A stretch of 64,000 bases of DNA. Source: Ramlibacter tataouinensis (GTDB lineage: Bacteria; Pseudomonadota; Gammaproteobacteria; Burkholderiales; Burkholderiaceae_C). The notes under the pieces were generated by a model. It was not told the DNA's origin. It saw nothing but the letters and a program-made list of their open reading frames with translations, and did no database searches. The stretch lies in assembly GCF_027941915.1 (NCBI RefSeq), contig NZ_CP116009.1, positions 186,001 through 250,000 of the forward strand, given 5' to 3'. Each line of letters starts with the position of its first letter. Position 1 is the stretch's first letter. This document shows, in pieces, positions 58,663-63,591 of this stretch. A program made the position numbers and the translations under genes.

Positions 58663-58702
58663 ATGGCGGCTTACAATCCGCGCCGCGCTCGCAAGGGCGC
58701 AT

Positions 58703-58786
58703 CCGCTAGGGGTGTTGCTGCCTTCAGGCAGCGACTGAGACAGTCCCTTCGAACCTGATTGAGGTAATCCTCGCGCAGGGAAGCCG
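58703..58786 (+). ncRNA. TPP riboswitch 1 (THI element), before cytX
   Basis: The aptamer shows GGGGTG, a variable P3 hairpin (GCTGCCTTCAGGCAGC), CTGAGA, then ACCTGATTGAGGTAAT and CGCGCAGGGAAG, the conserved TPP-binding core. It ends 72 bases before the cytX ATG. No terminator is evident in the expression platform, so control of translation start is more likely, though this is inference. Confidence 0.93.
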
Positions 58787-58857
58787 GCCAACGCAGCAGC
58801 GCCCTTCGCGGGCTTCGCTCCCAGGCTTGCCTTCGCGCGACCCACTGGAGTTTCGCG

Positions 58858-60156
58858 ATGGCCACCCTCCCGCCTGCCGCAGCAACGCTGCCCCTTCCCG
58901 CCGCCAACCAGGCGCTGACACCCCTGCCCGCTTCCGAGCGCGTATTCGGCTGGCGCGAACACGCGTCCCTGTGGTTCAGCCTGGGCGTCGGCCTGCTGGT
59001 GATGCAGGTCGGCGCCTACCTGGTGCCGGCGCTCGGCGCGCGCGATGCCCTGCTGGCGATCGTCGCCGGTTCGGTCATCGGCGCCGGGCTGCTGGCCTGG
59101 GTCGCCAAGCTGGGCTGCGACAGCGGCCTGGCCAGCGCCGGGCTGATGCATGCCGTCTATGGCAGCGGCTTCGCGCGGCTGCCCATCGTCCTGAACATCG
59201 TCCAGCTGCTCGGCTGGGGGACGTTCGAGCTGGTCGTGATGCGCGATGCCACCGTGGCCATCGCCGCCCAGGGCGGCAGCGCCGCCGGCTGGTGGCCGCT
59301 GGCCGCGACGCTGGCCTGGGGCGGGCTGGTAGCGCTGCTGGTCTCCGGCTCGATGGTGCGGCTGGTGCGCCGAATCGTCTCGCGCGTCGCGCTGCCGCTG
59401 GTGGTGCTGTCGCTCCTGTGGCTCAGCTGGCAGTTTCTCGGCATGGCCCAAGCGCAGGGCTGGCAGGCGCTGTGGCGCCGCCCGGGCGCCGGCGGCATGG
59501 GCGTGCTGCAAGCCCTGGACCTGGTGATCGCCATGCCGATCTCCTGGCTGCCGCTGGTGGCGGACTATGCCCGGCACGGCTCGAGCGGGCGCGCCGCCCT
59601 GAAGGGAACCTGGTTCGGCTTCGCCCTGGCCAACACCTGGTGCTATGCCCTCGGCGTGCTGGTGGCACTGACCCTGCCCAGCCAGGACCTGGTGACGGCC
59701 CTGCTGCTGGCGCAAGGCGGCCTGATCGCGCTGTCGCTGATCCTGATCGACGAGGTCGACAACGCTTACGGCGACGCCTACTCGGGTGCCGTGTCCAGCC
59801 ACAGCCTGGCGCCGGGCTGGAGCATCCGGCGCTGGGGACTCGCCATGGCCGTGGTCTGCACCGCCATGGCCCTGGTGCTGCCCATGCACAGCCTGGAGCC
59901 GTTCCTGCTGCTGCTCAGCTCGGTGTTCGTGCCGCTGTTCGGCGTGGTGCTGGGCCGGCTGTCCTTCGGCACCGACACCGTGGCGCTGCTCGCGCGGGCG
60001 CGCCGCGCCGAAGCGGTGCCGATCGCGATCTGGGTCGCCGGCATCGTCACGTACCACGCCTGCGGCCGGTTCGCGCCTGCACTGGGCTCGGCCCTGCCCG
60101 CGCTGGCGCTGACCTTCGCGCTGGCGTGGGCCACGCGGCCGCGGGCGAAATCCTAG
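58858..60156 (+). CDS. cytX: Putative hydroxymethylpyrimidine transporter, CytX type
   Basis: A 432-residue inner-membrane permease of the NCS1 (purine/cytosine permease) family with about twelve hydrophobic segments. Landmarks are the N-terminal WREHASLWFSLGVGLLVMQV, IVQLLGWGTFELVVMRD and the cytoplasmic-side PISWLPLVADYARHG. CytX proteins are linked to thiamin-pyrimidine uptake because they are typically preceded by TPP riboswitches, as here. Its stop overlaps the stop of the antisense thiD-like fragment. Confidence 0.9.
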   Translation: MATLPPAAATLPLPAANQALTPLPASERVFGWREHASLWFSLGVGLLVMQVGAYLVPALGARDALLAIVAGSVIGAGLLAWVAKLGCDSGLASAGLMHAVYGSGFARLPIVLNIVQLLGWGTFELVVMRDATVAIAAQGGSAAGWWPLAATLAWGGLVALLVSGSMVRLVRRIVSRVALPLVVLSLLWLSWQFLGMAQAQGWQALWRRPGAGGMGVLQALDLVIAMPISWLPLVADYARHGSSGRAALKGTWFGFALANTWCYALGVLVALTLPSQDLVTALLLAQGGLIALSLILIDEVDNAYGDAYSGAVSSHSLAPGWSIRRWGLAMAVVCTAMALVLPMHSLEPFLLLLSSVFVPLFGVVLGRLSFGTDTVALLARARRAEAVPIAIWVAGIVTYHACGRFAPALGSALPALALTFALAWATRPRAKS

Positions 60157-60260
60157 GCCGCCCGCAGTCGCGCCGGCTGCAGCGCCTGCGCATCGGGCGG
60201 TGTTCGCCCCAGCAGCAACGCCGCCTCGTCGAGGTTGGGCGTGACGCGTGCCGCTAGAAT
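60153..60260 (-). pseudogene. thiD-like (PfkB-family) fragment
   Basis: The minus-strand frame encodes ILAARVTPNLDEAALLLGRT followed by a short tail and TAG. TPN-x-x-EA-x-LLG is a hallmark of hydroxymethylpyrimidine kinase (ThiD) and related PfkB kinases, but only about 35 residues are present and the sequence ends abruptly at the cytX stop. With TPP riboswitches on both sides, a thiD remnant is the best guess. A general sugar kinase remnant is possible. Confidence 0.4.
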
Positions 60261-60290
60261 CCGCGAACGCTTCGCCGCTTGCGGTGAAGT

Positions 60291-60369
60291 CCGCTGGGGG
60301 TGTTGCCGTGCGCGGCGACTGAGAGAGTCCCTTTGAACCTGATTGAGGTAATCCTCGCGCAGGGAAGCA
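60291..60369 (+). ncRNA. TPP riboswitch 2 (THI element), before the TonB-dependent receptor gene
   Basis: GGGGGTG, a P3 hairpin (GCCGTGCGCGGC), CTGAGAGAGTCCCTTTGA and then the same 33-base core as riboswitch 1 (60335-60367 identical to 58751-58783). It ends 86 bases before the GTG start of the receptor gene. Confidence 0.92.
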
Positions 60370-60454
60370 AGCGTCGGGCGGCGCTCCGGGTTCTCGCAGG
60401 AGCAGCAAGCCGTCCCCCGCTGGCCCACCTGCCACCACCGTTGAAGGACACGGC

Positions 60455-62548
60455 GTGGCACGACTCCAACCGATTCCGGGCGCAGTAGCGCTCCTTCTTC
60501 TTGCGCTGTCCGCGGCGCAGGCGCAGGAAACCACCTTGCGCCCCCTCGTCATCACGCCGGCCGAGGTGCCGGCGGCGGCCGACGTCACCGGCTTCGGCGA
60601 CTTCCCGCGCAAGGAAGTGCCGGTGTCCACCACCGTCATCACCGGCCAGGAGATCGACGACAGCGGCGCACGCCGCCTGGCCGACCTGACCCGCTTCGAC
60701 AGCTCCGTCAGCGACGCCTACAACGCGCCCGGCTACTGGGACTTCCTGTCCATCCGCGGCTTCACCCTGAACAACCAGTTCAACTACCGGCGCGAGGGCC
60801 TGCCGATCAACGCGGAGACCACGATCCCGCTGGACAACAAGGAACGCATCGAGGTGCTCAAGGGCACCAGCGGCATCCAGGCCGGCACCAGCGCGCCGGG
60901 CGGGCTGGTCAACTATGTCGTCAAGCGCCCGACCGCACGCCCGCTGCGCGAAGTGCGCCTGGAGGCGAGCCAGCGCGGCAGCCTGCTGGGCGCGGTCGAC
61001 CTGGGCGGCCGCTTCGGGGTCGACGACGCCTTCGGCTACCGCCTGAACGCCGCGCAGGAGCGCCTGCGCCCGCTGGTGCGCAACACCGACGGCGAGCGCA
61101 GCCTGCTGGCGCTGGCGGCCGACTGGCGCGCCAGCCGCGATGCGCTGGTGGAAGCCGAGATCGAATGGAGCCGGCACGGCCAGCCCAGCCAGACCGGCTT
61201 CAGCCTGCTCGGCAACGTCCTGCCCGGCCCGGTGGACCCGCGGCTGAACCTGAACAACCAGCCCTGGCTGCAGCGCTCGCAATTCGACGCCCTCACCGGC
61301 ACCCTGCGCTTCACCCAGGCGCTGGGCAGCAACTGGCGCTGGACCGCGCAACTGGGCACCCAGCGGCTCGAGACCGACGACTTCACGGCCTTTCCATTCG
61401 GCTGCTCGGCGGAAGGCAACTTCGACCGCTTCTGCTCGGACGGCACCTTCGACTACTACGACTTCCGCAGCCAGGACGAGCGCCGCCGGCGCGATGCCGC
61501 GGCCGGTAAGCTGGCCGGCAGCGTGCAGGCCGGCGGCGTCACGCACGAGCTGTCGGGCGGGGTGCTGCGGCATCGCACGCGAGATCGCTTCAACCCGCAG
61601 GCCTTCAACCTGGCCGGCACCGGAACCATCGACGGCCTGGCCGTGGTGCCGCCCAGCCCGGTGACCGGCTTCATCGTGCCGGACCGCGACGAGCACACCA
61701 CCGAGTTCCACCTGCAGGACGCGGTCCGCTGGAACGATCGCCTGACCACCTGGCTGGGCGTGCGCCACACGCGCCTGGACCGCGGCTACCGCCAGAGCCT
61801 GACCACGCCGTGGGCGGCCGTCAGCTACAAGCTCGGCGACCAGGTGGCGTACGGCAGCTGGGGCGAAGGCGTGGAGTCCTGGCAGGTCACGACCGATCCG
61901 CTGTTCGCCCTGGCCAACGCCGGGCAGGTGCTGCCGGCCGCCAAGTCGCGCCAGGCCGAGGTGGGGCTGCGCGGCGGCGATGCGGCGCTGGGCTGGCAGG
62001 TCGCGCTGTTCCAGGTGCGCCGCCCGATGACCAACTTCGACTTCTGCACCCGCACCTTTGCCTGTGCCGTCGGCCAGTACGACGGCTCGGCCGTGCATCG
62101 CGGGCTGGAGGCCTCGGCGCAATGGACGCAAGGGCCGTGGCGGCTGCAGGGCGGCGCCACCCTGCTGCGCGCGCGCCGCGAAGGCAGCGTCTACGAGCCC
62201 GCCACCAACGGCCAGCAGCCGGTGAACGTGCCGGAGGTCGTGCTGCGCGGCAGCGCCGCCTACCGCCTCGCGGCCGTGCCGGGCCTGGAGCTGCAGGGCC
62301 ACGTCTCGCACGAGGGCTCGCGCCCGGTGCTGGCCGACGGCTCGGTGTCGATCCCCTCGTGGACGCGCCTGGACGCCGCGCTGCGCTACGAGCGCCGCAT
62401 CGGCGCGGCCGACACCACCTGGACCGTGGGCGTGCACAACCTGCTGGACCGCCGCTACTGGCGCGAATCCCCCACCCAGTTCGCGCACGTCTACCTGTAC
62501 CCGGGTGCCCCTCGCACCCTTCGCGTGTCTTTTGCTGCCGCGTTCTGA
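60455..62548 (+). CDS. TonB-dependent outer-membrane receptor under TPP control
   Basis: A 697-residue receptor. A signal peptide (LLLLALSAAQAQ) is followed by a plug domain with the TonB-box-like start TLRPLVITPAEV, STTVITGQEIDDSGARR and VLKGTSGIQAGTSAPGG, then a beta-barrel ending in VYLYPGAPRTLRVSFAAAF with C-terminal Phe. It resembles the siderophore-receptor subfamily, but the TPP riboswitch 86 bases upstream argues for import of thiamin or a precursor. GTG start with GAAGGACA upstream. Confidence 0.9.
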   Translation: MARLQPIPGAVALLLLALSAAQAQETTLRPLVITPAEVPAAADVTGFGDFPRKEVPVSTTVITGQEIDDSGARRLADLTRFDSSVSDAYNAPGYWDFLSIRGFTLNNQFNYRREGLPINAETTIPLDNKERIEVLKGTSGIQAGTSAPGGLVNYVVKRPTARPLREVRLEASQRGSLLGAVDLGGRFGVDDAFGYRLNAAQERLRPLVRNTDGERSLLALAADWRASRDALVEAEIEWSRHGQPSQTGFSLLGNVLPGPVDPRLNLNNQPWLQRSQFDALTGTLRFTQALGSNWRWTAQLGTQRLETDDFTAFPFGCSAEGNFDRFCSDGTFDYYDFRSQDERRRRDAAAGKLAGSVQAGGVTHELSGGVLRHRTRDRFNPQAFNLAGTGTIDGLAVVPPSPVTGFIVPDRDEHTTEFHLQDAVRWNDRLTTWLGVRHTRLDRGYRQSLTTPWAAVSYKLGDQVAYGSWGEGVESWQVTTDPLFALANAGQVLPAAKSRQAEVGLRGGDAALGWQVALFQVRRPMTNFDFCTRTFACAVGQYDGSAVHRGLEASAQWTQGPWRLQGGATLLRARREGSVYEPATNGQQPVNVPEVVLRGSAAYRLAAVPGLELQGHVSHEGSRPVLADGSVSIPSWTRLDAALRYERRIGAADTTWTVGVHNLLDRRYWRESPTQFAHVYLYPGAPRTLRVSFAAAF

Positions 62549-62586: not shown

Positions 62587-62662
62587 TCCCCGATAGCTCA
62601 GTCGGTAGAGCGCCGGACTGTTAATCCGTAGGTCCCTGGTTCGAGCCCAGGTCGGGGAGCCA
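62587..62662 (+). tRNA. tRNA-Asn (anticodon GUU)
   Basis: 76 bases with encoded CCA. The acceptor TCCCCGA pairs with TCGGGGA. The D arm is GCTCAGTCGGTAGAGC, the anticodon loop CTGTTAA, and the T arm CCTGG-TTCGAGC-CCAGG. Confidence 0.97.
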
Positions 62663-62784: not shown

Positions 62785-63591
62785 ATGTACACGCGAATCC
62801 TTGTTCCGGTCGACGGCTCGTCGTTCTCGAACCAGATCCTGCCGCTGGCAGGCACGATCGCGAGGGCGACCGGCGCCCAGCTGGCCCTGTACCGCGCGGT
62901 CGGAAGGACCGACGGGGTCGCCGAGGCGCGCCATGCATTGCAGACCCTGGCCGATTCCTGCGGGGCCGAGGCCATCTGCACGGAGGTGCACGGGGGCGTG
63001 GCCGAGGCGATCCACCAGGAAGCCGAGCGCGTTCCCGGCACGCTGGTGGCCATCACCTCGCATGGGCGATCCGGCGTCATGCGCGCCGTGCTCGGCAGCA
63101 CGGCGCTGGACGTCTTGCGCACCGGCGGCAACCCCATCCTCGTCTACCGCCCCCGGGAGCCGGCCGCGGGTTCGGCAGCCGCCGGGGCGGCGATCGAACG
63201 CATCTTCGTTCCGCTGGACGGCAGCCCCTTGTCCGAATCGATCATCCCGCAGGCCGTGGACCTCGCGCGCGGGTTGAAGGCGCGCATGGTGGTGGTCGCG
63301 GTGCTCGGCCGGGTCGGTGCGTCCGGGCTGGAAGGGCTCGACGTCATGGAGTCCAACTACGTCCAGAACCAGGCGGCGGCGATCACCCGGACGCACGGCA
63401 TCGATGCCGGGTGGGAGGTCCTGCATGGCGATCCGGAGAAGGCAATTCCGGAATTCGTGCGCAACTACCCCGCTTCGATCCTGGCCATGACCACGCGCGG
63501 GCGCAGCGCCGTGACCTCCGCCCTGCTCGGCAGCGTCACGGCCGCTGCCTTGCGGGACGGGGGCGTGCCGGTGTTCACGCGCCTGCCGTGA
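62785..63591 (+). CDS. Tandem universal stress protein
   Basis: A 268-residue cytoplasmic protein made of two UspA domains. Domain 1 starts TRILVPVDGSSFSNQILPLA and ends ITSHGRSGVMRAVLGSTALD (the G-x2-G-x9-G(S/T) nucleotide motif). Domain 2 starts RIFVPLDGSPLSESIIPQAV and has MTTRGRSAVTSALLGSVTAA in the matching place. Both ATP-binding motifs look intact. The ATG at 62785 gives the family N terminus; the frame is open to 62698 inside the tRNA terminator. Confidence 0.92.
   Translation: MYTRILVPVDGSSFSNQILPLAGTIARATGAQLALYRAVGRTDGVAEARHALQTLADSCGAEAICTEVHGGVAEAIHQEAERVPGTLVAITSHGRSGVMRAVLGSTALDVLRTGGNPILVYRPREPAAGSAAAGAAIERIFVPLDGSPLSESIIPQAVDLARGLKARMVVVAVLGRVGASGLEGLDVMESNYVQNQAAAITRTHGIDAGWEVLHGDPEKAIPEFVRNYPASILAMTTRGRSAVTSALLGSVTAAALRDGGVPVFTRLP

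Follow-up and report, generated by a model that had tools for sequence, protein, structure and literature searches.

The locus described here raises the question of what is taken up by a TonB-dependent receptor that automatic annotation would call a siderophore receptor and whose leader carries a TPP riboswitch, and of which proteins would carry its ligand onwards. The window, the whole stretch of 64,000 nucleotides from Ramlibacter tataouinensis that was analysed, contains the following features of interest (window coordinates, strand, description and basis).

58698..58798, + strand: TPP riboswitch aptamer of cytX (RF00059, 58.1 bits)
58858..60156, + strand: CytX-like NCS1 permease, predicted HMP importer (TIGR02358 as best match; PF02133)
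60171..60254, - strand: remnant of the HMP-P kinase gene thiD spanning about 28 codons, in convergent orientation to cytX (ThiD similarity)
60286..60382, + strand: TPP riboswitch aptamer in the receptor leader (RF00059, 54.3 bits, matching the gathering score)
60443..60448, + strand: GAAGGA, likely Shine-Dalgarno sequence of the receptor, just 5' of the GTG at 60455 (sequence)
60455..62548, + strand: TonB-dependent receptor of 697 aa, predicted thiamin importer (ORF, Pfam Plug and barrel domains, AlphaFold2 model)
60608..60904, + strand: plug domain of the receptor, residues 52-150 (PF07715)
60944..62545, + strand: β-barrel of the receptor, about 22 strands, residues 164-697 (DSSP of the AlphaFold2 model; PF00593)
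62587..62659, + strand: tRNA-Asn directly 3' of the receptor (Rfam tRNA)

With a probability of roughly 0.77, these features belong to a scheme in which the receptor would import thiamin, an unlinked Pnu-family permease and a kinase would take it over, the riboswitch would provide feedback, and CytX would serve a parallel HMP route.

The receptor frame (60455-62548) begins with a GTG start codon. The N-terminus of the protein consists of MARLQPIPGAVALLLLALSAAQAQ followed by LRPLVITPA, which can be read from the sequence as a plausible signal (about residues 1-23) and a TonB box. Both PF07715 (Plug) and PF00593 (TonB_dep_Rec_b-barrel) score over their Pfam cut-offs, and the AlphaFold2 model, built with 29 homologues, has a mean pLDDT of 85 and displays the plug together with about 22 barrel strands. 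Comparison of the model against solved structures revealed the siderophore receptors FemA, BauA, FhuA and FoxA as the nearest, with Z scores of 38-39 across about 630 residues; they share the plug and the 22-strand barrel with the receptor but are only 20-25% identical to it, and a connection of these four to a TPP riboswitch is not described in the literature searched. By its predicted architecture, the protein is thus a TonB-dependent outer-membrane transporter. As the original prediction anticipated, annotation by similarity would indeed name it a siderophore receptor, because the NCBIfam model TIGR01783 ('TonB-siderophor') matches at 270.1 bits against a cut-off of 223.5; however, this is a broad subfamily model whose score does not prove the substrate. 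The best Fur-box match near the receptor reaches 11/19, compared to a mean of 9.1 and a maximum of 12 in shuffles. A loop motif, [FYW][DN]R[FY]CSDG, was considered as a receptor signature and dropped, being present in just 41 of 103 receptors.

A search of 501 bases with RF00059 located the aptamer of the receptor leader with an E-value of 5.7e-10, ending 72 nt before the receptor frame. It is absent from the above-cut-off list of a 9-kb scan and is counted over the cut-off genome-wide. In the alignment its core is intact, with CUGAGA, GAACCUGAU, GGUAAU and GCGCAGGGAAG, and the conserved RF00059 core of CUGAGA, ACCUGAU and GCG is present. The riboswitch that had been predicted for this leader is therefore borne out at the gathering score, and it is conserved well beyond the window. 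Our family sample comprises 150 genomes of the window's family, mostly from different genera, 75 of which encode the receptor; a covariance model built from receptor-linked aptamers placed a TPP riboswitch ahead of 74 of these 75 receptors in the same orientation, at a median gap of 92 nt. In the sole exception, G122, the receptor closes a run of cytX, thiO, thiS, thiG and thiE headed by a single riboswitch. Within the genus, all nine receptors inspected (9/9) have an upstream TPP riboswitch. Moreover, among 31 named receptor loci, the labels are with few exceptions those of Burkholderiales, Comamonadaceae or genera within this order, and most of the loci have a TPP aptamer shortly 5' of the receptor. 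Since the riboswitch precedes 74 of 75 receptors and the one exception belongs to a thi operon with a riboswitch at its head, the predicted link between TPP and the receptor is real and old. In the receptor leader itself, neither an intrinsic terminator nor a clear expression platform was found, folding was no better than that of shuffles, and no sigma-70-like promoter could be recognized by consensus 5' of the riboswitch. The tRNA directly downstream of the receptor also recurs at most of the 31 named loci; tRNA-Asn is conserved beside the receptor in relatives and forms no part of the uptake system. Just past it, the frame 62785-63591 (+) reads like two universal-stress-protein domains.

Upstream of the receptor lies the gene that the original prediction had cast as the inner-membrane half of a two-membrane route. 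A CytX-like permease is indeed encoded there, behind a TPP riboswitch of its own that lies 59 nt 5' of cytX and scores above the receptor aptamer. It resembles CytX, a proposed HMP transporter, in that TIGR02358 is its best NCBIfam match and in its riboswitch, yet it stays below the curated cut-off (228.7 versus 309.85 bits) and is not what usually accompanies the receptor. The proposed route through CytX is not supported by the family comparison: cytX occurs in 29 of 150 genomes and in only 5 of the 75 with a receptor, giving counts of 5/70/24/51 (both, receptor only, cytX only, neither), so that 24 of the 29 cytX genomes lack the receptor (p = 1.3e-4 for avoidance, phylogeny ignored), and it is a PnuC/PnuT homologue that co-occurs with the receptor instead. 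cytX is near the receptor also in G132, G071, G122 and L035. At the 15 other same-genus loci for which the upstream flank was retrieved, cytX is beside the receptor in none, and the gene directly before the receptor is ferredoxin-reductase-like. This anticorrelation in the family, together with the same-genus loci devoid of cytX, rules out CytX as an obligate partner of the receptor.

The short interval between cytX and the receptor aptamer holds a trace of a different arrangement. The thiD remnant is 71% identical to residues 136-163 of the ThiD of G132 (E 1.5e-5), and intact thiD genes lie convergent with cytX at the equivalent place in L035, L088, L089 and L090. In G132 (L088), thiD closes a riboswitch-led thiM-thiE-thiD run that is divergent from the receptor. 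The simplest reading of these sequences is an ancestral thiM-thiE-thiD arrangement in the window's lineage that would have been lost by deletion, with the remnant as its scar.

The own genome, a single contig of 4.47 Mb, has no thiC and retains thiG; a third TPP riboswitch precedes thiD, thiE, thiO, thiS and thiG, all but thiG being named by reading their sequences. As thiC is absent though this riboswitch-led set is kept, the organism should be an auxotroph for HMP or thiamin, and for the same reason CytX probably supplies HMP in parallel. Across the family sample, the receptor is present in 43 of 53 genomes that lack both thiC and thiG, versus 31 of 87 that have both (p = 1.2e-7, phylogeny ignored). 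In 36 of those 43 receptor genomes a single TPP riboswitch was detected; for 21 of these the coordinates were inspected individually, and every one of the 21 riboswitches is situated shortly 5' of the receptor. The loss of thiC is also associated with the receptor in the family sample (p 1.2e-5, phylogeny ignored), whereas the genus shows no such association (3/16/11/30, p 0.51). The receptor as a marker of thiC loss was accordingly set aside and serves as supporting evidence at most. Because the within-genus association is missing and 31 genomes with both genes retain it, the receptor represents a salvage system rather than just a sign of auxotrophy. thiC is missing from most of the 60 same-genus genomes.

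Search for a transporter that accompanies the receptor pointed to the PnuC/PnuT permease family (PF04973), found in 83 of the 150 family genomes. Receptor and permease occur together in 72 genomes, the receptor alone in 3, the permease alone in 11 and neither in 64 (p 1.7e-26). In the same-genus sample of 60 genomes, which is independent of the family sample save for two genomes, the corresponding counts are 18/1/3/38; restricted to genomes of at least 95% completeness, they are 14/0/0/23. In both samples the co-occurrence statistics ignore phylogeny. In the own genome the permease (G000:C1:889697-890236, PF04973 E 1.2e-50) is unlinked to the receptor and sits behind a gene that reads as an enolase. 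A P-loop kinase frame of the AAA_28 type starts where the permease ends, the pair spanning L145 7647-8872 (G000:C1 about 889646-890871), and at 30 of 32 permease loci the two genes are neighbours. The kinase is NadR-like and has a C-terminal CDTCSDPDCE motif. Curated models name the permease PnuC, a nicotinamide riboside transporter, and give the kinase a weak NadR match; no TPP riboswitch was found at the permease locus. One of the three family genomes with a receptor but no permease, G031 (99% complete), has a second TPP riboswitch before ThiB-ThiP-ThiQ (L161 4126-7570), which by reading of its sequences is a thiamin ABC transporter; it is the only one of the three in which a substitute was found.

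A classical thiamin pyrophosphokinase (PF04263) was detected in none of the 150 family genomes, which makes the NadR-like kinase a candidate for the missing thiamin kinase step. The role of permease and kinase in thiamin metabolism is inferred from their co-occurrence with the receptor. We give even odds that the permease in truth transports thiamin and the kinase phosphorylates it, the kinase being of a family not known to act on thiamin, and that the two would form with the TPP-switched receptor the standard thiamin salvage route of this bacterial family. No report of a NadR-like thiamin kinase appeared in the open literature searched.

We propose that thiamin would bind inside the receptor barrel and be moved into the periplasm by TonB-ExbBD energy, after which the unlinked PnuC/PnuT-family permease would take it across the inner membrane. 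The kinase whose gene immediately follows that of the permease, or another kinase, would trap the thiamin as thiamin phosphate. TPP made from the imported thiamin would bind the riboswitch in the receptor mRNA and bring expression down, and CytX, under its own TPP riboswitch and not as the receptor's obligate partner, would feed HMP to the intact ThiD-ThiE-ThiO-ThiS-ThiG.

Variovorax, which we take to belong to the same bacterial family as the window's organism, offers one comparison. There, a TPP-riboswitch operon has been described whose permease and receptor are predicted to import thiamine (Hessler et al. 2023, PMC10409787). This operon, a prediction only, resembles that of G122 in combining a permease, thi genes and the receptor under TPP control; in contrast, the window's receptor has its own riboswitch, and the thi genes that would once have intervened are reduced to the thiD remnant. 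Genetic evidence for thiamin uptake is a feature of the OMthi/BT2390 system of Bacteroides thetaiotaomicron, where deletion of the TPP-switched TonB receptor BT2390 in a thiamin-synthesis mutant raised the thiamin need (PMC5613172), and PnuT, a thiamin member of the PnuC/PnuT permease family, is known from Bacteroidetes (PMC5613172). Compared by gene content and control, both that system (with PnuT BT2396) and ours possess a TPP-switched TonB receptor and a Pnu-family permease in the same genome. However, the former belongs to another phylum, and Bacteroidetes pnuT is TPP-controlled and adjacent to tnr3, whereas the permease of the window's genome is unlinked, lacks a TPP riboswitch and is followed by the NadR-like kinase. 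TPP-controlled TonB thiamin receptors have also been listed as putative in classification studies (PMC2771747, PMC3400609), and omr1 has been described close to a riboswitch in SAR86 and Flavobacteriales (PMC10881298). TPP-switched TonB thiamin receptors are thus already known from Bacteroidetes or predicted in Variovorax; the new part is the link of the receptor to an unlinked permease-kinase pair, for which the literature searched holds no precedent.

That the receptor might instead take in HMP or some other pyrimidine derived from thiamin breakdown and pass it to CytX is suggested by the neighbourhood itself, with cytX next door under its own TPP riboswitch and near the receptor in the four further cases named above, and by the absence of thiC beside a retained thiD-E-O-S-G set, which makes HMP the missing precursor. 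We nevertheless regard this as unlikely, since cytX and the receptor avoid each other in the family (5/70/24/51), other same-genus receptor loci are without cytX, the receptor pairs with ThiBPQ in G031, and 42 receptor genomes lack thiC, thiG and cytX altogether, so that a supply of HMP would on its own be insufficient for making thiamin. Intact thiamin, or its phosphates, is therefore favoured over HMP as the most economical substrate: without thiG an imported pyrimidine would not restore synthesis, and the permease link, the ThiBPQ transporter of G031 and the receptor's riboswitch as the only one detected in 36 of the 43 receptor genomes lacking thiC and thiG point the same way. The substrate was originally given as thiamin or a pyrimidine; the choice is narrowed towards intact thiamin by the 43 of 53 genomes without thiC and thiG that encode the receptor. 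Most likely, then, the receptor would import intact thiamin or a thiamin phosphate ester, and its expression would be lowered by TPP.

It is quite improbable that the ligand is phosphorylated thiamin, a thiamin antagonist or breakdown product, or another vitamin-like ligand, for example nicotinamide riboside, with thiamin itself secondary. The co-occurring permease and kinase do bear the names PnuC and NadR-like, and control by TPP leaves the bound thiamin compound unspecified; against this, almost all receptors have the TPP riboswitch, their placement in thi operons points to thiamin metabolism, and ThiBPQ replaces the permease in G031. A siderophore receptor with an incidental riboswitch is scarcely credible despite the TIGR01783 score and the nearest solved folds, since the riboswitch precedes 74 of 75 homologues, the best Fur-box match falls within the range of the shuffles, the receptor is tied to the permease and to the loss of thiamin synthesis genes, TIGR01783 is a broad subfamily model, and published work groups thiamin receptors with siderophore receptors (PMC3400609); the thiamin-related role first proposed for this gene is upheld by the same riboswitch conservation, permease tie and thi-gene losses.

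Many members of this family have genes for neither half of thiamin and depend on importing it, and standard annotation hides the route by calling the receptor a siderophore receptor and the likely permease and kinase nicotinamide riboside proteins. If the three were read as a single system for thiamin salvage, annotation would be corrected in roughly half the genera sampled; if true, this reading would help to predict vitamin B1 auxotrophy and cross-feeding among communities of soil and water, and provide a specific, testable candidate for the missing thiamin kinase.

Two further receptor loci differ in their organization. L112 (G080:C1:1565573-1569862) carries a tandem pair of receptors, 47% and 44% identical to that of the window, with one detected TPP riboswitch, in a genome without thiC and thiG. 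In Ramlibacter terrae (L035 4001-6113), the receptor is split into three overlapping frames and is thus frameshifted, by pseudogene formation or sequencing error, and its riboswitch is intact.
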